Source: an uncultured Phycisphaerales bacterium
GTDB taxonomy: Bacteria > Planctomycetota > Phycisphaerae > Sedimentisphaerales > Anaerobacaceae
Length of the DNA stretch: 45,218 nucleotides
Assembly (NCBI GenBank): GCA_937927975.1
Contig: CALEZT010000017.1
Span: 1-45,218, forward strand
Reading direction: 5' to 3'
The notes below the pieces were generated by a model. That model made no database searches and was not told where the DNA came from. It saw nothing but the letters and a program-made list of their open reading frames with translations. The stretch's first letter is position 1. Each line of letters opens with the position of its first letter. The translations under genes and the position numbers were made by a program. Shown piece by piece: positions 1,001-22,516 of the stretch.

Positions 1001-1041
1001 GTGACAGACAGTTGTCTGACGGTAGCGGCGAAGCCGCGTTA
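1001..1041. repeat. Palindromic element at the 3' end of HEPN gene A
   Basis: Contains two small palindromes, CAGACAGTTGTCTG and a GCGGC-TTC-GCCGC hairpin (read on the minus strand), ending in the HEPN stop codon. An almost identical 41 bp element lies at 4866-4906 next to the HEPN fragment, and its hairpin half recurs at 2104-2128, 14 bp past HEPN gene B. It could act as a terminator-like or boundary element of the modules. Confidence 0.7.
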
Positions 1042-1434
1042 CTGCTTTGCTATGTACTGGCCGATCCCCTGGACGAGGACCTGAACATCCGTGAACAGTT
1101 GCCCGATTTCGTCCGCATCCAGTTCGACAAAGGGCAAGTAATCGTCCTGCTGCCTTTCATTGAACGCTCGATGGAGCGTCTTGGAATATTCCTTCGGCAG
1201 GCGGCCGGAACCGATGAACTCCTTATCGAAGAATGCGATCACCGCCGAATGCTTGGAGTACTGAAGCCGCTTGGTCAACAGCGCAGCCACGGCGGCATAG
1301 AAACATGCGTAGTACAACCGGTTGGCGGTCGCTCGATACCGGCCGGCGTTCAGCAGAAGGTCCGCATCCTGCAGGGCTTCTCTGGCTTGCTCCATGCGGT
1401 AGTCGAGCAGTGATCCAAAGTCCTTGTCTCTCAT
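1039..1434 (-). CDS. HEPN domain toxin (module A)
   Basis: 131 aa all-helical HEPN protein (PF05168 type), the presumed RNase/toxin half of a MNT-HEPN pair. The diagnostic helix is NRLYYACFYAAVAALLT, followed by KHS and, near residues 92-100, RQQDDY, which takes the place of the catalytic R...H/DY region in this subfamily. The ATG overlaps the stop of the upstream MNT gene by 4 bp (ATGA), indicating translational coupling, the normal arrangement for these toxin-antitoxin operons. A second, truncated copy of its last ~55 codons lies at 4904-5071 with only a few substitutions. Full length for the family. Toxic activity is inferred from the family, not shown. Confidence 0.85.
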   Translation of the reverse strand: MRDKDFGSLLDYRMEQAREALQDADLLLNAGRYRATANRLYYACFYAAVAALLTKRLQYSKHSAVIAFFDKEFIGSGRLPKEYSKTLHRAFNERQQDDYLPFVELDADEIGQLFTDVQVLVQGIGQYIAKQ

Positions 1435-1766
1435 GCAGTGATTTCAACGCCCTCTTCGCGGACGTTCCGGGCATATTCGGAGACAGAGAGCGGACCACTC
1501 TCCAGTGCGTCCTGACTGACGACGGCCACGGAAATGACGTAGCCTTCCTCCAGACTCAACTCCCAGGCCCGATCCAGGATTCGCCTTCTGACCGCAGGGG
1601 TGACCTCCCGCACTTCCACCAGGAGATCGAGGTCCGATCCCGGATCTTGGTCGCCTCGGACCCGCGACCCGTAGGCATAGACCCGCACGACGCCGGTATC
1701 CGGGTCGAGGCCGCCGATGAGCCTCCTGACGACTTCACTGATGTGTGTCTCGCCCTCTGCCTTCAT
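1431..1766 (-). CDS. MNT-type nucleotidyltransferase antitoxin (module A)
   Basis: 111 aa minimal nucleotidyltransferase. The catalytic motif GSRVRGDQDPGSDLD (GS at 33-34, DxD at 45-47) fits the GS-x10-DxD signature of the pol-beta fold. Proteins of this group neutralise partner HEPN toxins, in characterised cases by adding AMP to the toxin. It is followed by a HEPN gene with a 4 bp overlap and is itself preceded, again with an ATGA overlap, by a MNT stub encoded by repeat R1, so a single transcript with chained translation is likely. All catalytic residues are present. Confidence 0.85.
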   Translation of the reverse strand: MKAEGETHISEVVRRLIGGLDPDTGVVRVYAYGSRVRGDQDPGSDLDLLVEVREVTPAVRRRILDRAWELSLEEGYVISVAVVSQDALESGPLSVSEYARNVREEGVEITA

Positions 1767-1903
1767 AGAGCGTCCTGCCCTCGCGTAAGATGGTGGTCCG
1801 TGGCCTCGCCCCGAGCGTAGGAACCGAAGAGGATGACCTGCGACGCGTTCGCCGCCTCACCCAACTGGACCGCAACGTGTTGTATCCGGCTCTCAGGAAT
1901 CAT
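1763..1903 (-). pseudogene. Internally deleted MNT stub carried by repeat R1
   Basis: A 46-codon ORF starting MIPESRIQHVAVQLGE and keeping the GSYARG half of the MNT motif. It jumps after ...GEATD to HHLTRGQDAL-stop, which looks like the normal C-terminal end of such proteins, so the catalytic DxD and most of the fold are deleted. Its stop overlaps the start of the intact MNT gene A (ATGA). The same N-terminus is found in the stubs at 6091-6273 and 2863-2925. Confidence 0.6.
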
Positions 1904-2068
1904 ACAGAACAGGATACCGTGCGAGAGCATCCGTGTGAACCAGGAACTGACTGAAGGACTTGGTTGCCGGCCCGGTGGAGCGGGCGGCGTTCCTGCGATT
2001 GGCGGCGATCTGTTTGTCTGTGGTCTTCAATCCTTGCCTATCTTCACAAATGGGTTCGTTTGGGAAAA
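1795..2068 (-). repeat. Array repeat copy R1
   Basis: About 274 bp nearly identical to R3 (6165-6470) and, over its central ~190 bp, to R2 (2879-3122). Read on the minus strand it carries the 5' end of an ANRRNA gene and then the 5' end of a MNT gene. It lies immediately upstream of MNT-HEPN module A. Confidence 0.9.
1893..2030 (-). CDS. 45-aa ORF of repeat R1 (truncated ANRRNA N-terminus)
   Basis: Starts with TTG and encodes KTTDKQIAANRRNAARSTG, then a different 22-residue tail ending ARYPVLYDS. Its TGA lies inside the first codons of the MNT stub (11 bp overlap). Identical ORFs exist at 2915-3052 and 6263-6400. It is either a relic of an ANRRNA gene or a leader peptide that feeds ribosomes into the stub and then into the MNT-HEPN genes. 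Expression is not shown by the sequence. Confidence 0.35.
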   Translation of the reverse strand: MKTTDKQIAANRRNAARSTGPATKSFSQFLVHTDALARYPVLYDS

Positions 2069-2141
2069 TGATGGGTCGGCGTTCCTCTGCGGAGGCATCG
2101 GTCCGACGGTAGCGACGGAGCCGCGTTACTATCCGCTGCTC

Positions 2142-2552
2142 TTACACCTTGCCGAGAGCCACCAGGTGCGAGTTCACTGCATCGACAAATCGCTCCGCCT
2201 GGCTGACGACCTGTTTTGCCTCATCATCCTGTAGCTTGACCTGCTCGCGGTAATCCACACGCTGTCGCAGCTCGAATCCCTTGGCCAGGGAAAACCCGAG
2301 GGATTTGTCGAAGATGCCACCCTTGATGAAGTGCTGATTGAAGTAGCTCAGGACGCCGCTGTGTTTCGACGACGAGAATGCTTCATAGACCAGCAATGCC
2401 AACACCGCGTAGAACATGGCATAGTAGGCTCGATTGATGATGGAACGGGCACTCTTTCCGCCGGCCAGGAGGAAACGGGCTTCGTCCAGGCTTTCCTCGG
2501 CCTGCTGTACGCGGTACCGCGCAAGCTCCCTCTGCTTCTCGCTAGCCGTCAC
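2142..2552 (-). CDS. HEPN domain toxin (module B)
   Basis: 136 aa helical protein with the HEPN signature INRAYYAMFYAVLALL and KHSGVLSYF, then ELRQRVDYRE corresponding to the RxxxDY active-site region of the family. Full length. The ATG overlaps the stop of MNT gene B by 4 bp. Sequence similarity to HEPN A is only at family level, so modules A and B are not recent duplicates of each other even though the repeats beside them are nearly identical. Presumed RNase toxin held in check by the upstream MNT. Confidence 0.85.
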   Translation of the reverse strand: MTASEKQRELARYRVQQAEESLDEARFLLAGGKSARSIINRAYYAMFYAVLALLVYEAFSSSKHSGVLSYFNQHFIKGGIFDKSLGFSLAKGFELRQRVDYREQVKLQDDEAKQVVSQAERFVDAVNSHLVALGKV

Positions 2553-2866
2553 ACCGAAATCCCTTCCGCCAAGACCCTCTTATATAGGGGCGATTCGCCG
2601 AGCGGACCTTCCTCCAACTCCTGCCTGCCGAAGATCACCACCGAGATCAGACAATCGTGGGCCAGGTTGATGTCGTAGACCAATTCGTCGATGGCTGTTT
2701 CGCTCTCGGGCGTGTAGTCGTCCACGACGATCATGACGTCGATATCCGAGTCGGGCGAATCGTCGCCCCGGGCCTTGGAGCCGTAGACCATCATGCAACG
2801 GACGCCGTAGCGATCCCGTAAGGCTCGTTTCAGCTCCTCCAAGGCTGTCTTCTCTTCACGCGTCAT
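2549..2866 (-). CDS. MNT-type nucleotidyltransferase antitoxin (module B)
   Basis: 105 aa with motif GSKARGDDSPDSDID (GS at 29-30, DxD at 41-43), i.e. an intact minimal nucleotidyltransferase. The C-terminal part (ISVVIFGRQELEEGPLGESPLYKRVLAEGISV) resembles MNT A (SVAVVSQDALESGPLS...NVREEGVEI), so the MNTs of A and B belong to one subfamily. The start overlaps the stop of the 20-codon stub from repeat R2 (ATGA), and the stop overlaps the HEPN start. Confidence 0.85.
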   Translation of the reverse strand: MTREEKTALEELKRALRDRYGVRCMMVYGSKARGDDSPDSDIDVMIVVDDYTPESETAIDELVYDINLAHDCLISVVIFGRQELEEGPLGESPLYKRVLAEGISV

Positions 2867-2925
2867 GATCGATCCTTCTCACCCAACTGGACCGCAACAT
2901 GTTGTATCCGGCTCTCAGGAATCAT
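2863..2925 (-). pseudogene. 20-codon MNT stub carried by repeat R2
   Basis: Reads MIPESRIQHVAVQLGE-KDRS-stop: the same N-terminus as the stubs of R1 and R3, cut before the catalytic GS motif. The stop codon shares ATGA with the start of MNT gene B. The 45-aa ORF upstream overlaps its start, giving a chain of four overlapping ORFs. Confidence 0.5.
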
Positions 2926-3122
2926 ACAGAACAGGATACCGTGCGAGAGCATCCGTGTGAACCAGGAACTGACTGAAGGACTTGGTTGCCGGCCCGGTGG
3001 AGCGGGCGGCGTTCCTGCGATTGGCGGCGATCTGTTTGTCTGTGGTCTTCAATCCTTGCCTATCTTCACAAATGGGTTCGTTTGGGAAAACGGAGGGTCA
3101 TTCCTTGGCTCGTGAAGCGTCC
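2879..3122 (-). repeat. Array repeat copy R2
   Basis: About 244 bp. It matches R1 over ~190 bp with a single base difference noticed (A for G at 2899), and matches R3 for a further ~32 bp that ends in DASRAKE codons. Contains the 45-aa ORF (2915-3052) and the MNT stub. Lies between the truncated HEPN C and module B. Confidence 0.9.
2915..3052 (-). CDS. 45-aa ORF of repeat R2
   Basis: Same 45 codons as the ORFs at 1893-2030 and 6263-6400 (ANRRNA-like N-terminus plus a tail ending LARYPVLYDS), TTG start, stop overlapping the MNT stub start by 11 bp. Perfect conservation across three copies may simply reflect recent duplication of the repeat. Confidence 0.3.
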   Translation of the reverse strand: MKTTDKQIAANRRNAARSTGPATKSFSQFLVHTDALARYPVLYDS

Positions 3123-3228
3123 TGCGCGACGGGCCAAGCGTCAGAATCTATGTCTTTCTCTCGCCTATCACTTTCCGTTTCGCGGATCACGCTTGACGCT
3201 CGCCGCGTTGCGTCCTTCGCTCCGTGAG

Positions 3229-3459
3229 TTACGCCTGCTGCTTCGCGTCTTTTCGACTGCTGAGAACGGAATGCCGGGCGAACTGCTTGCCCGACGTCAG
3301 CAGCAGCGCGGTGACCGCATAGAAACAAGCGTAGTACAACCGGTTCACGGCGAAGCCAGGGTGTCCCTCGGCCAATTCCAGCCGGGCCGAGGCGAGAGCT
3401 TCCGCGGCCTTTTGCAGCCAGAGTCTGATAAGGATTCGATCGGCCTGTTCCTTGTTCAT
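3229..3459 (-). pseudogene. Truncated HEPN gene (module C)
   Basis: 76 codons. The first ~63 are a normal HEPN start (AVNRLYYACFYAVTALLLTSG, FARHSV), after which the frame runs into unrelated residues LSSRKDAKQQA and a stop. About half the domain, including the RxxxDY region, is missing, so it should not be an active RNase. The start still overlaps the stop of MNT C by 4 bp. The sequence just downstream (3122-3240) looks like dispersed non-coding DNA and then repeat R2, so the truncation probably came from a recombination with repeat DNA. Confidence 0.7.
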
Positions 3460-3800
3460 ACGGTACAGCCGTCCCTCTGGACTTCCGCATAGAGGGGCAG
3501 GTAGTGCAGCAGACCGTCTGCCCAGTCCTTCTCGAAGACGACCACGGAACTGAGCACCACGTCATTCTGCAGATTGATGTCCGCCAGTTTTTCCGAGACC
3601 GCCGCACGCAGGTGGGCCGTTACCGGACAGGACGAAATCACCAGGAGATCCAGGTCCGAGTGCACGTCGGCCTGCCCGCGGGCCTTCGAGCCGAAGAGAA
3701 TGACTTGGGATATGGGCAATTCCGATTTCAGGGAACGGGCCGCCTCCAAAATGGAGTTGCGGTCCTTGTCCGCCAGATGGATACTGTCCAGTGTCTTCAT
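3456..3800 (-). CDS. MNT-type nucleotidyltransferase (module C)
   Basis: 114 aa from the ATG at 3800, chosen because conserved sequence starts there; the frame is open up to 3950 but that part does not look coding. Motif GSKARGQADVHSDLD (GS at 37-38, DxD at 49-51) is intact. Its coupled HEPN partner is truncated, so this antitoxin is now an orphan. The C-terminus (HYLPLYAEVQRDGCTV) resembles MNT A and B. Confidence 0.8.
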   Translation of the reverse strand: MKTLDSIHLADKDRNSILEAARSLKSELPISQVILFGSKARGQADVHSDLDLLVISSCPVTAHLRAAVSEKLADINLQNDVVLSSVVVFEKDWADGLLHYLPLYAEVQRDGCTV

Positions 3801-3913
3801 AGCTCTCTCGATCTCGATTCTACCCGGCCACGATCCCTTGGGATACGGCGGATCCGAACAGGGCACGCCGACTGAACCACGCTGATTGCAGGAAGGAAAG
3901 TGACCTACGGTCC

Positions 3914-4393
3914 TTACAGTCCGCGGTCTACTTGCCCGGTTGATGGGCATCCATACCCCCGGTAGGCGAGCTGGCGGGTCCGCCAGGCCATGAGGTCCTC
4001 GTATTCGGCGCAGGTCCGGGCGTAGAAGTCGGAGAAATCCTGCTCGCGGCCGGGCCGAACGAACAGGACCCGACCCTTCAACGCCTCGTGGCGCAGCACG
4101 ATTCCCGCCGTGTTGAGCACCGTCAGATCGCAGGAGACGAAAAAGGCATCCTCGATCCTGCCGACGATATCCACCAGGAGATCAATACTGGCGGCATTGC
4201 CGTCAGCCAACCAGACGGCCACGTCCAGATCGGAGTGCGCCCGCACGACCCCATCGGCGGCCGAACCGAAGACCAGCGCAAAATCAATGGAGGCAATCCC
4301 TCTCAGGACAGCCGCCAGTTGCTCCGGATCGACCTTCTTGCTGCCTGGCAGCCCAGGGGCGGCGATCAGCCAGTGTTCAGCGACCTCTTTCAT
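3914..4393 (-). CDS. MntA-like nucleotidyltransferase antitoxin
   Basis: 159 aa. Motif GSAADGVVRAHSDLD (GS at 43-44, DxD at 55-57), then a longer C-terminal half with LRHEALKGRVLFVRPGREQDFSDF and a Y-E-D-L-...-R-T-R-Q-L tail. This architecture is that of MntA antitoxins, which normally pair with HepT (DUF86) toxins. No HepT follows: the next gene is another MNT (module C). The start overlaps the end of the MNT at 4377-4736 by 17 bp, so the two are co-translated. Confidence 0.75.
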   Translation of the reverse strand: MKEVAEHWLIAAPGLPGSKKVDPEQLAAVLRGIASIDFALVFGSAADGVVRAHSDLDVAVWLADGNAASIDLLVDIVGRIEDAFFVSCDLTVLNTAGIVLRHEALKGRVLFVRPGREQDFSDFYARTCAEYEDLMAWRTRQLAYRGYGCPSTGQVDRGL

Positions 4394-4736
4394 ACAGGAC
4401 CTGGCCTCGGTTCATGATCTCCCTGGCGAAAAGGCTATCCAGCCGGAGGAAGGCTTCGTGCATCGGCTTCGTATGGACGATCAGGTCGATGGCCACCTCC
4501 CGATTGATCGGCCGCAGCAGGGAAGAGACTTTCAGGTGATTCCGCATGCGTTCCCCGTAGCTGGCAGGCATGGAATCGTCCTGCGTCACGACGTAGAGAT
4601 CGATATCACTGTCCTCCGTCGGCCGGCCCCAGGCGTAGGAACCGAAGAGGATCACCTTCTCCGGATGCAGCGGCCTGAGCGCCTCGCTGATCCGATCTCT
4701 CAATTCGTCCGAAAGCCCGGTCGTGTCTGTTGCCAT
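4377..4736 (-). CDS. MNT-type nucleotidyltransferase without adjacent HEPN
   Basis: 119 aa. Motif GSYAWGRPTEDSDIDLYVV (GS at 32-33, DxD at 44-46) intact; C-terminus MHEAFLRLDSLFAREIMNRGQVLYERGR is typical of nucleotidyltransferase-domain proteins. It overlaps the MntA-like gene downstream by 17 bp. Family members usually pair with HEPN proteins, but none is adjacent here, so the partner may have been lost or be encoded elsewhere. Confidence 0.8.
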   Translation of the reverse strand: MATDTTGLSDELRDRISEALRPLHPEKVILFGSYAWGRPTEDSDIDLYVVTQDDSMPASYGERMRNHLKVSSLLRPINREVAIDLIVHTKPMHEAFLRLDSLFAREIMNRGQVLYERGR

Positions 4737-12458: not shown

Positions 12459-12938
12459 CTACGCCGCCGCGGTCGATTCATCGTCCTCGTCCTGGCCCGA
12501 TGTGAAACAGACCATGGCGATCAGGACGAGACTGGCCCCGGAGATGAACAGGATGATCCGCTTGGCCGGATCGCTGCACCGCTGGAGCCACCTGGGGATC
12601 GTCGCCTCCGTCGGCTCTTCATTGGCGGCCGTCAGCGCCTTGCGGGCGATGGCCAGTTCCTGGGCCCGCGCCTTGGGATAGACCGTGTTCGGATCTTCGA
12701 TTCGAGTCCCCAGCGTGACCGGGGCGATCCGCTTGATCAGGTTGGGATCGTTCTCCAATTGCGACAGGAGCACGTCGTATTGTTCGTTGAGGGATCGGAG
12801 CTTCTGGATCGACTGCTCCGCCTGGGCGACAAGGTGCTGGTTGCGGCAATGCTTGATGAAATCGTCGCACAGGACCGCCCCGCCGAGCGATGCGGCGCCG
12901 GTGCTGAAGAAGATCACGAAGATCAGGAAGCGAAGCAT
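12459..12938 (-). CDS. Small membrane protein with coiled coil, function unknown
   Basis: 159 aa from the ATG at 12938; the frame extends upstream to 13049 but residues there are Arg/Pro-rich and not coding-like. A hydrophobic N-terminus (MLRFLIFVIFFSTGAASLGG) acts as signal anchor. A ~45-residue coiled coil follows (LVAQAEQSIQKLRSLNEQYD and onward), then a second TM near 130-148 (IILFISGASLVLIAMVCF) and an acidic tail (GQDEDDES). The topology suggests a periplasmic loop with both ends near the membrane. No family recognised. It lies 250 bp downstream of the M50-enolase gene on the same strand. Confidence 0.6.
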   Translation of the reverse strand: MLRFLIFVIFFSTGAASLGGAVLCDDFIKHCRNQHLVAQAEQSIQKLRSLNEQYDVLLSQLENDPNLIKRIAPVTLGTRIEDPNTVYPKARAQELAIARKALTAANEEPTEATIPRWLQRCSDPAKRIILFISGASLVLIAMVCFTSGQDEDDESTAAA

Positions 12939-13164
12939 ATGCGCCTTTGCACGATCCGCAGACGGGTCCCGACGCGGGGGCCGCGTCCGGTCCCCTGCCC
13001 CAAAAACTGCGGCAGGCATGGCCCGTCTCCATCGACTGGAGAGGGCCACACCTGCCGTTTTGCATCCACATCCAACCGTTCAGCCAAGGGCCCCCAACCG
13101 AAGGGCCTCCAACCTACTGGGTTTATCGGTCGTTACTGGGCGTTTTCTGAAGCGATTCTCTCAG

Positions 13165-13189: not shown

Positions 13190-15883
13190 TCAGACCGGGT
13201 AGACCGGCAACTGAGCCCGCAGGAGCTCGTACAGGGTCTTGCCTTCCTTGATCGCCTCGGCCGCGGTCTTCTGGAACAGGGCCTGGAGCTGATCGTAGTC
13301 CATCTTCTTGAGGTCCGCGGCGGATCTCTTCTCGCCCTTGGCGTTGGCGGCGACGAACTTGGACATCGTGTCGGCCGACATTTCGCGAATGAGCTGCCAG
13401 AGTTCCTTGCCCTGACCGGCGGCCACCGCCCGGCCCAGCGCCAGCGACATCGACAGGATGGCGTTCATACCGAGCACGCTCTTACGCTGCATGGCGTGAA
13501 TCTTCTTGTCCTTCGGAGCGTCCTGCGGAATCCGGCCCATGCGAATCGCTTCGCCCAGTTCCAGACCCAGCAGTTCCTTGTCGGCGTCGAGCAGGGTGCC
13601 CAGCTTGCCGACCTTGCGGCCGACGAACGCCTTGGCGAGCACGCCCTCGATATGGCTGACGGCGTCCATGCAACCCTTGCCTTCGTACCGTCGGGACTTC
13701 TTCCAGAGGGCCGCCAGCTTGTCGTCGTTCTTGGCCTTGACGTCGGTGACCTTGACTTCCTTCTTGAAGCGGAAGGTGCCGTCGCCGGCGTTCTTGAACA
13801 TGTCGGGGTACTTCTTCGTGGTCTCGGAGGCCTCGATGATGCTGTCCACGTAGTGAATGGCCTCGTCCTCGCCGGCGCTGGTGCCCAGCGGGGTCGAGCC
13901 CTTGAAGCGGATGATGCCGCTCTTGCCGAGGAAGAGCGAGGCAGCTGCCGACGGGATACCCGCGTTGGTCGCCTCTTCGGTGCCGCTGACGGCCTCGATG
14001 GCCAGCATCTTGATGAACAGGCCCGTGATATCCACGTCGCCGGCGTCGGCCTTGAGGGTGACGTCCTGGCCGGTCAGCGTCTTGACCAGTTCCTTGATGG
14101 TTTCCTGGGTCTCTTTGCGCTCCTTCTCGGTCAGCTCGCGCTGCGAGGAACGGGCCAGGGCCAGAATCTCCATGACGCGGCCGTACTTCTGCAGACGCTC
14201 GGTGTTGGCGCCGCCGCCGCACTTCAAGCCGACGGCGTTCATCGCGGTGGCGATTTCCGCCTCGAACGGGTCGTTCGGGCTCTTGGACCGGTGGGAAACG
14301 ATCAGCTCGGCGCCGTAGCCCAGAGAGGTCAGCATGGCCAGCACGGTCTCGGTGACGGTGCCGATCTGGTTGGCCTTGATGAGGGAGGCGTTGATTTCGC
14401 CGTTCTTGGCGCACTTCTCGATATTCGAGTCCTTCGTGGTGACCAGGTCGTCGCCGACGATGAAGATCTTGTCGCCAAGCTCTTTCATCATGTTCTGCCA
14501 GCCCTGGTGGTCGCGTTCGCCGAAGCCGTCCTCGATGGAGAGAATCGGGATGCCGTCTTCCATGGATTTCTTGAAGAGGCCGAGGATCTGGTCGCGGCTC
14601 ATCTCGACCTTGTCCTTGTCGCGCCAGAAGCGGTACATGCCGACGGAATCCGGCTCGCCGCGTTCCTCGCGATAGGCGTTCTCGAGTTCGGAGCAGGCGG
14701 GGTCGAGCGCGATCGCGACGTCCACGCCGGGCACCAGTTCGCAGTCCAGAATGGCCTGCTTCATGAAGCGCCACATCCGCTGCTCGGGCACCTGGTCGGT
14801 GGGCTCTTTGTCGATGTAGGGGGCGATGCCGCCTTCGAGACCGACGCCCATGACCTTGGCGCCGGGGGCGGACTCGATGATTTCCTTCAGACGGGTCTGG
14901 AGCTTGACCGTCATTTCCTGCGAGTCTTCATAGGTTTTCGGCGACAGCGGCATGAACATGCTTTCCTGCATGCTGATGTTGCTCTCGGGATACTCTTTCT
15001 CAGTGTGCCGACCGCCCATGGCGCAGTTACGGTACTGCCAGGGGGCGGTGACGCGGCTGCCGTCCTTGAGGGTGACGTGCTGCATACGGCTGGTGAGCAT
15101 GGTCTTCTTGACCTGCGCCACGCGGGCCGGCCAGGCCTCGCCGGAGGCGGCGATCGCGGCGGCGCGGGCGGCGGCCTCCGCAGCGGCCTTCTCGCGGTTG
15201 CGGAATTCCTTCAGCTTGCCCGGGTCGGCCAGGAGTCTGTCGAGCAGGCCCACGATGCCGGGGGCGAGGAAGAACCGGCCGATGTAGATCATCCAGTCCT
15301 GACCTGCCGCCAGGCCCACGATGATGAAGAACGCGGCGATCGGCAGGCAGATCGTGGCCAGCCACTGGCTCCAGATCGGAGCGGCGGCCGACACCGCCAG
15401 GTTGTACGGCGCGTCGGGGGCGAAGTTGCCGTTCTCCTTGCGGACGCCGTAGAACTTGCCCCACGGGATCAGGGCAAACATCTGGGCGTAGTAGCCGAAC
15501 TTGTTGCCGCTCTTGAGGGCGGCGTCGGCCTTCTCCTGGGAGTCCTTGTTCAGAGCCGTCAGCTTGGCGGCCGTCAGGAAGTGGCCCATCTCATGGACCG
15601 CGATGGCGATGTGCCAGGACAGGTACAGAACGATCAGGGAAATCCACAACTCCGGGTGCGCCGGCGAGAACATGAAGTTCAGCACCGCATACTTGATGTT
15701 CGTGCCTGCTGCGACCTGCTCGGCCAAGTCTTTGGCCGGAAGGCTCAGGACCGATGAAATGAAGGCGGCATGGAACGAGACGAGCTTGTGGTTCGCGATG
15801 ACCCAGCCGCGCTCCAGGTACCCTGCGGGACCTTCCACAAGGTCGTGCATGCTTCTGTTCTTCTCCACCGCTGACTTGTTCAT
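13190..15883 (-). CDS. M50-like membrane domain fused to a circularly permuted enolase
   Basis: 897 aa in one uninterrupted frame, with AAGGAG 10 bases before the ATG and a good promoter at 15959-15987. Residues 1-225: membrane domain with four to five hydrophobic segments and HEMGH at 97-101, the zinc site of M50 (site-2) proteases; the usual second motif NxxPxxxLDG is not clear (LLDRLLADPGK at 213-223 is the nearest). 225-255: Ala-rich linker. 265-580: enolase barrel (normally the C-terminal domain). 620-835: enolase N-terminal domain (PLGTSAGEDEA loop; LGMNAILSMSLALGRA), normally found first. 836-897: helical tail ending TLYELLRAQLPVYPV, which resembles the native inter-domain segment. Yeast enolase residues map to S669 (S39), H293 (H159), E307 (E168), E350 (E211), D394 (D246), E451 (E295), D478 (D320), K503 (K345), H531-R532-S533 (373-375) and K554 (K396). 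Expected activity: 2-phosphoglycerate to phosphoenolpyruvate, anchored at the membrane. Confidence 0.85.
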   Translation of the reverse strand: MNKSAVEKNRSMHDLVEGPAGYLERGWVIANHKLVSFHAAFISSVLSLPAKDLAEQVAAGTNIKYAVLNFMFSPAHPELWISLIVLYLSWHIAIAVHEMGHFLTAAKLTALNKDSQEKADAALKSGNKFGYYAQMFALIPWGKFYGVRKENGNFAPDAPYNLAVSAAAPIWSQWLATICLPIAAFFIIVGLAAGQDWMIYIGRFFLAPGIVGLLDRLLADPGKLKEFRNREKAAAEAAARAAAIAASGEAWPARVAQVKKTMLTSRMQHVTLKDGSRVTAPWQYRNCAMGGRHTEKEYPESNISMQESMFMPLSPKTYEDSQEMTVKLQTRLKEIIESAPGAKVMGVGLEGGIAPYIDKEPTDQVPEQRMWRFMKQAILDCELVPGVDVAIALDPACSELENAYREERGEPDSVGMYRFWRDKDKVEMSRDQILGLFKKSMEDGIPILSIEDGFGERDHQGWQNMMKELGDKIFIVGDDLVTTKDSNIEKCAKNGEINASLIKANQIGTVTETVLAMLTSLGYGAELIVSHRSKSPNDPFEAEIATAMNAVGLKCGGGANTERLQKYGRVMEILALARSSQRELTEKERKETQETIKELVKTLTGQDVTLKADAGDVDITGLFIKMLAIEAVSGTEEATNAGIPSAAASLFLGKSGIIRFKGSTPLGTSAGEDEAIHYVDSIIEASETTKKYPDMFKNAGDGTFRFKKEVKVTDVKAKNDDKLAALWKKSRRYEGKGCMDAVSHIEGVLAKAFVGRKVGKLGTLLDADKELLGLELGEAIRMGRIPQDAPKDKKIHAMQRKSVLGMNAILSMSLALGRAVAAGQGKELWQLIREMSADTMSKFVAANAKGEKRSAADLKKMDYDQLQALFQKTAAEAIKEGKTLYELLRAQLPVYPV

Positions 15884-21793: not shown

Positions 21794-22516
21794 ATGCCTG
21801 TAGAGCTGGGTCTCGGATTGGTTTGGTATGCGGTGTTCGTGATCTCGACGACGTTTCACGAGGCCGCCCATGGCCTGGCCGCGTGGAAGCTGGGCGATCC
21901 CACGGCCCGCGAAGCCGGACTGGTCACGCTCGATCCGGTCCCGCACCTGCACAGATCGCCCATCGGCATGATCGTCGTTCCGATCGTCGCCTTCCTCACA
22001 TCGGTAACCACAGGCGGCGGATGGATGATCGGCTGGGCCAGCACTCCCTACGATCCCTATTGGGCCCAAGCCCATCGCAAGAAGGCGGCCTGGATGGCCT
22101 TGTCGGGACCGGCCGCCAACCTGGTGCTGATCCTTCTGGCTGCCGCGATCATTCGCATCGGCATGTCTGTGGGCCTGTTCGCGGCCCCGCTGGAATCGAC
22201 GTGGACGCAGATCACCGTTGCCCGCTCGCCGGGCCTGATCAGCAGCGTGGCGATCGTGGTCAGCGTCCTGTTCTCTTTGAACCTGATCCTGCTGGTCTTC
22301 AACCTGTTGCCCCTGCCCCCGCTCGACGGCAGCGAGATCGTCATGCTGTTCCTGGACGACCGCACGGCGGACCGCTACCGGGAATTCATGGCCCAGCCGG
22401 CGGCCGGCCTCATCGGTCTGGTCGTCGCCTGGAACCTCATCGCCGTTCTCCTGGGCCCGGCCCAGACCCTGGCTTTGAACCTCCTCTACCCCGGCGCCGG
22501 ATACGGGCATCAGTAA
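21794..22516 (+). CDS. Site-2 protease family (M50) membrane protein
   Basis: 240 aa with about six hydrophobic segments. HEAAH near residues 24-28 supplies two zinc ligands and the catalytic Glu; NLLPLPPLDGSEI near 170 supplies the third ligand (LDG). This is the small rhomboid-independent M50B type without a PDZ domain, similar to FwdE/SpoIVFB-like proteins. Its substrate is unknown. It starts 51 bp after the fucosidase and may share its transcript. Contrast the M50-like domain fused to enolase at 13190-15883, where the second motif is not clear. Confidence 0.85.
   Translation: MPVELGLGLVWYAVFVISTTFHEAAHGLAAWKLGDPTAREAGLVTLDPVPHLHRSPIGMIVVPIVAFLTSVTTGGGWMIGWASTPYDPYWAQAHRKKAAWMALSGPAANLVLILLAAAIIRIGMSVGLFAAPLESTWTQITVARSPGLISSVAIVVSVLFSLNLILLVFNLLPLPPLDGSEIVMLFLDDRTADRYREFMAQPAAGLIGLVVAWNLIAVLLGPAQTLALNLLYPGAGYGHQ

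Follow-up and report, generated by a model that had tools for sequence, protein, structure and literature searches.

To our knowledge, enolase is a near-universal enzyme with a single domain order, in which the N-terminal domain precedes the barrel. The locus described here raises the question of whether an enolase with these two domains swapped, and fused behind a membrane module, could still serve as a working enolase. It lies in a 45,218-nt stretch of DNA from an uncultured Phycisphaerales bacterium (CALEZT010000017.1; the window, below), in which a single unbroken open reading frame (ORF) with strong coding composition (G+C at third codon positions, GC3, 0.90) at 13190-15883 of the minus strand encodes a protein of 897 amino acids. 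We consider this protein to be a circularly permuted enolase that likely converts 2-phosphoglycerate to phosphoenolpyruvate (PEP) on the inner side of the membrane, as judged from its sequence and a structure model. The first-pass annotation of the window had recognized the enolase part correctly but began at residue 265, omitting the conserved first 264 residues. In the complete protein, a predicted membrane module (approximately residues 1-261) is followed by the enolase barrel, a linker, the enolase N-terminal domain and a helical tail. These features are listed below; counts out of 173 alignment rows, here and throughout, omit homologues P0153 and P0175.

13190..15883, minus strand: entire gene, membrane module plus permuted enolase, 897 aa (ORF, Pfam, coding composition)
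15101..15883, minus strand: residues 1-261, predicted membrane module, M50-like (hydropathy peaks, weak Pfam M50 matches)
15581..15595, minus strand: HEMGH, residues 97-101, HExxH motif and putative zinc site (H97, E98 and H101 in 169/173 rows, 4 gapped)
15239..15241, minus strand: D215, putative third metal ligand (173/173 rows)
14144..15091, minus strand: residues 265-580, enolase barrel (Enolase_C)
14021..14143, minus strand: residues 581-621, linker between the old C- and N-termini (helical in the model)
13376..14020, minus strand: residues 622-836, enolase N-terminal domain with inserts (Pfam, alignment, hhalign, PDB profile search)
13859..13891, minus strand: PLGTSAGEDEA, residues 665-675, mobile loop with S669, yeast S39 (S669 in 173/173 rows)
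13193..13375, minus strand: residues 837-897, helical tail, missing or different in distant members (model; P0172 and P0174 end early)

The swapped order proposed in the first-pass annotation was borne out by profile searches, profile-profile comparison and a confident structure model, and the enolase motifs that it listed were each found at the positions it gave. Enolase_C (PF00113) matched residues 284-573 of the window's protein with 159 bits (Pfam cut-off 21.5). Enolase_N (PF03952) scored 33.7 bits, slightly below its cut-off of 35, with the best stretch at residues 798-832. In distant homologues, Enolase_N was found above the cut-off downstream of Enolase_C (P0174, residues 584-739, 53.1 bits; P0172, 52.4 bits; P0171, 45.5 bits), and we therefore regard the usual N-first order as reversed; PF03952 was also above the cut-off in P0122 and P0123 and below it in P0160. 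N-domain pieces of nine ordinary enolases, aligned without guidance, shared 40-48 identities with the window's protein across 127-143 positions; eight of them were placed inside residues 623-840 and the ninth (L108) at 638-897. Profile-profile comparison (hhalign) of the permuted and ordinary N-domains gave a probability of 98.1% (E 7.9e-14, 135 columns), and the permuted N-domain profile retrieved enolases from the PDB (best E 3.5e-12). By a strict motif test, the barrel came first in 163 of 175 homologues, with 12 undetermined and none in the usual order; the same test on 120 ordinary enolases gave 115 N-first and five undetermined. The arrangement of ordinary enolase, N-domain before barrel, was thus not seen in this group. 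The alignment used (A5) was obtained after trimming of the barrel pieces; two others were discarded, A3 because N-pieces of ordinary enolases were misplaced, which arose in an alignment also holding full-length ordinary enolases, and A4 because of misplaced barrel ends.

The location of the new termini at the native domain junction was supported as well, and the linker joining the old ends measures 29-68 residues between flanking motifs across 171 homologues. A full-length structure model built from 21 close homologues was unusable (predicted local distance difference test, pLDDT, 49.3) and was replaced by a model of residues 262-897 based on 72 diverse rows (pLDDT 93, predicted template-modelling score, pTM, 0.92). 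The latter predicts with confidence the fold of the whole enolase part, including the N-terminal domain region. Foldseek and VIA-align follow sequence order, so only the barrel (model residues 12-319) was compared with solved structures.

A protein search returned 978 matches at E 0.001, with identity of at least 74% among the 120 matches listed; a second search returned 54 matches that included more distant members. A genome scan identified 39 loci, mainly labelled Phycisphaerae, Sedimentisphaerales or Planctomycetota, with one locus each labelled Fermentibacteria, WOR-1, Margulisiibacteriota, Saganbacteria and Verrucomicrobiota. A locus containing a run of N was excluded from interpretation. 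No close relatives were found in viral contigs. The gene is rare in even samples (a full match in 1/199 genomes of the phylum; 2/59 of the order) and was found in 21/80 genomes of the family and 6/31 of a WOR-1 class. The WOR-1/Margulisbacteria members (L027, L028, L035) carry about 200 additional C-terminal residues, and sequence like this extension also occurs in other large ORFs of genomes G286 and G299. Many of these sources are metagenome contigs, and one long homologue (P0175, 2099 aa) has over 1,200 residues of other sequence ahead of its module and barrel, with no N-domain found; it may be a chimera, a broken gene or a longer fusion. An assembly or gene-calling artefact would be compatible with such cases, but the identical layout recurs in many independent assemblies from several phyla, including single-contig chromosomes, and both halves are conserved, so we rejected this explanation as having practically no chance of being correct. 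In a phylogenetic tree (P0153 omitted), the 28 permuted barrels group in a single clade (100/100) distant from 56 ordinary barrels, and because of this a single old origin of the permutation appears to be the simplest reading.

All eleven active-site equivalences with yeast enolase proposed in the first-pass annotation hold in the alignment (S39=S669, H159=H293, E168=E307, E211=E350, D246=D394, E295=E451, D320=D478, K345=K503, H373=H531, R374=R532 and K396=K554, in what we take to be the yeast numbering), and a twelfth, S375=S533, can be added. These 12 catalytic, magnesium and phosphate positions are kept across 173 homologues with a single gap, at D246, and no loss; P0153, which is present in A5, also keeps all twelve. 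The first shell of the active site is, by sequence, that of enolase. The second shell differs: the Asp that precedes E211 in 120/120 ordinary enolases is replaced by Leu (156), Ser (11) or Thr (6), and the loop after SHRS, which reads GETE (117/120) or GDTE (3/120) in ordinary enolases, is mostly KSPN. Similarly, at E20 and R414, presumably dimer contacts of enolase, the permuted proteins have Ala (166/173) and Glu (167/173), respectively, so the usual contacts appear to be lost.

Among the 38 genomes behind loci L001-L039, a count that excludes the window's own genome, a full ordinary enolase gene (eno) was found in 18, a fragment in two (G005 and G013) and none in 18. The suggestion that the permuted gene might be the only enolase of its genome is thus partly supported. 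Two single-contig chromosomes (G017 and G023) yielded no enolase gene but the permuted one; both retain pyruvate kinase together with a PF01676 match of the size of phosphoglycerate mutase (PGM), a label that rests on score and size because PF01676 spans other enzymes too. A third chromosome (G026) has both enolase genes. The nearest relatives of the window are likewise divided, with the permuted gene alone in G361, G001 and G351 and both genes in G002 and G003. In the family sample, ordinary eno was missing in 13/21 carriers vs 8/59 non-carriers (Fisher test, p 4.9e-5). Many of these genomes are drafts; G005 was counted here as having ordinary eno, and G350 as a carrier with its copy cut by the contig edge (L039), and other cut copies may be overlooked likewise. 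Overall, the protein can likely replace the soluble enolase. Ordinary enolases of Planctomycetota carriers (L044-L052) score lower against PF00113 (approximately 357-392 bits) than those of most family non-carriers (approximately 409-454 bits, some lower), and may possibly have a relaxed or changed role.

Several findings speak against a glycolytic enolase. A very long branch separates permuted from ordinary enolases, the second-shell changes are uniform and the dimer-contact positions are lost. Full ordinary eno accompanies the permuted gene in 18/38 carriers (a fragment in 2/38) and in all six of the WOR-1 class carriers, and pyruvate kinase was found in just 8 of 11 searched carriers that lack a full ordinary eno. 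The Fisher test takes carriers as independent, uncorrected for kinship. The superposition is limited to the barrel and does not extend to the docking of the N-domain on a solved enolase. Finally, the TIGR01060 score is 195.4 bits against a cut-off of 300; this model cannot be aligned over its whole length with a permuted protein. Other functions are still considered because the branch is long, the second shell is altered and ordinary eno co-occurs in many carriers. One of them is that the protein has the enolase fold, metal ligands and catalytic pair but acts on another, related phospho- or phosphono-acid, with ordinary enolase serving glycolysis where present. Such a substrate would suit the deep branch, the uniform second-shell and loop changes and the 18 genomes with both genes, but we regard it as unlikely given that twelve of twelve first-shell positions are kept and that another 18 carriers, including the two single-contig chromosomes that encode pyruvate kinase and a PGM-type protein, have no ordinary eno.

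The N-terminal module (residues 1-261) has four hydropathy peaks (28-46, 79-97, 175-193 and 196-214), the second of which reaches HEMGH and puts the HExxH motif in a predicted membrane segment; D215 and D220 are invariant. Positive charges prevail in the loop after HEMGH (K+R 7.9 vs D+E 5.2) and again downstream of the final peak (9.7 vs 5.9), so the HExxH motif, D215 and the enolase part would all face the cytosol. M50 (PF02163) is the sole Pfam family matched by module sequences (12/20 at E 0.1), at 17.5 bits for the window's protein and 26.7 bits at best (P0172), compared with a cut-off of 27.2. No solved structure resembling the module was found up to E 10. The window also encodes an ordinary stand-alone M50 protease (21794-22516, plus strand, 53.6 bits), whose alignment to the fusion module is confined to the HExxH region with 1% probability. 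On these grounds we describe the module as M50-like rather than as a member of M50. It precedes the permuted enolase in the full-length homologues examined, from Planctomycetota to Margulisbacteria, and on account of this conserved placement we treat the fusion of membrane module and permuted enolase as the unit. A search for the module in 149 genomes of the phylum found it in G017, with a 43-position fragment in G047.

The HExxH motif and D215 show the same invariance as the active-site residues of the enolase part, so the module might be a zinc protease as well. A stronger version, in which a bifunctional intramembrane zinc protease and permuted enolase displaced the soluble enzyme in part of Planctomycetota, with the PEP step run at the membrane and coupled to regulated proteolysis, is conceivable but doubtful. 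The same invariance, the constant position of the module ahead of the enolase and the many carriers with another enolase would also fit an enolase part that is a ligand-binding sensor, reporting the level of 2-phosphoglycerate or PEP to a membrane zinc protease with catalysis secondary. Catalytic residues, often lost in sensors, are all retained here, the M50 membership of the module is weak and half of the carriers have no ordinary eno, which makes a sensor quite improbable. Retention of the active-site residues in its relatives instead favours a membrane-bound working enolase. In such an enzyme, the linker joining the old termini would let the N-terminal domain dock on the barrel in the usual way, and the mobile loop (S669) would close over the active site. 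As in ordinary enolase, Lys503 would act as the base and Glu350 as the acid, with magnesium bound by Asp394, Glu451 and Asp478. The membrane module would anchor the enzyme, and in carriers without ordinary eno the fusion protein would carry lower glycolysis.

Gene neighbourhoods provided little further information. The commonest neighbour, at 14 of 40 loci (window included), is a small unannotated membrane protein, which in the window lies immediately downstream of the fusion gene:

12459-13049, minus strand: small predicted membrane protein (no Pfam match)

Other neighbours, psd (9 loci) and a CDP-alcohol transferase gene (8 loci), are restricted to subsets of the loci, and the 40 loci, many of them short, yielded no functional neighbour. 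Elsewhere in the window, a toxin-antitoxin-like cluster (1039-4736, minus strand) contains two HEPN/nucleotidyltransferase pairs (1039-1766 and 2142-2866) and two more nucleotidyltransferase genes (3914-4393 and 4377-4736).

No permuted or protease-fused enolase was found in the literature searched by title and the start of the abstract, a search with subscription papers and preprints outside its scope; the word "enolase" is absent from the main text of PMC10945688. Homologues are named "hypothetical protein" or "enolase" in databases. The novelty seems to lie in recognition of the domain order, in the fusion and in the pattern of replacement, the proteins themselves being already in databases. 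If a bifunctional membrane enzyme is indeed encoded, this would represent the first case of an enolase circularly permuted in nature. An old, widely kept natural permutation with an intact active site would allow a test of whether a two-domain active site still works with its halves in reverse order, and of the contribution made by fusion to a membrane metalloprotease-like module. If some bacteria depend on this protein as their one enolase, their glycolysis is easily misjudged, because the protein carries those database names and falls below the equivalog cut-off.

Among known systems, site-2 (M50) proteases share with the module an HExxH motif in a hydrophobic segment and a distal conserved Asp, both near the cytosolic face according to the predicted topology. 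The module differs from them in its best Pfam score (26.7 vs 27.2), in matching no solved structure at E values up to 10, in its fusion to enolase and in lacking the usual form of NPDG/LDG, which we take to be a motif of these proteases. The enolase superfamily (mandelate racemase/muconate lactonizing type) has the same combination of capping domain and barrel, and P0172 shows a weak MR_MLE_C match (15.5 bits); in the members known to us the capping domain comes first, whereas in the window's protein it follows the barrel. Ordinary enolase (phosphopyruvate hydratase; PF03952 plus PF00113; TIGR01060) shares both domains, the checked active-site residues and the barrel fold. In contrast to it, the window's protein has reversed domains fused behind a membrane module, an H159 loop longer by five residues, inserts in the N-domain, an altered second shell and altered dimer contacts, and a TIGR01060 score under the cut-off.
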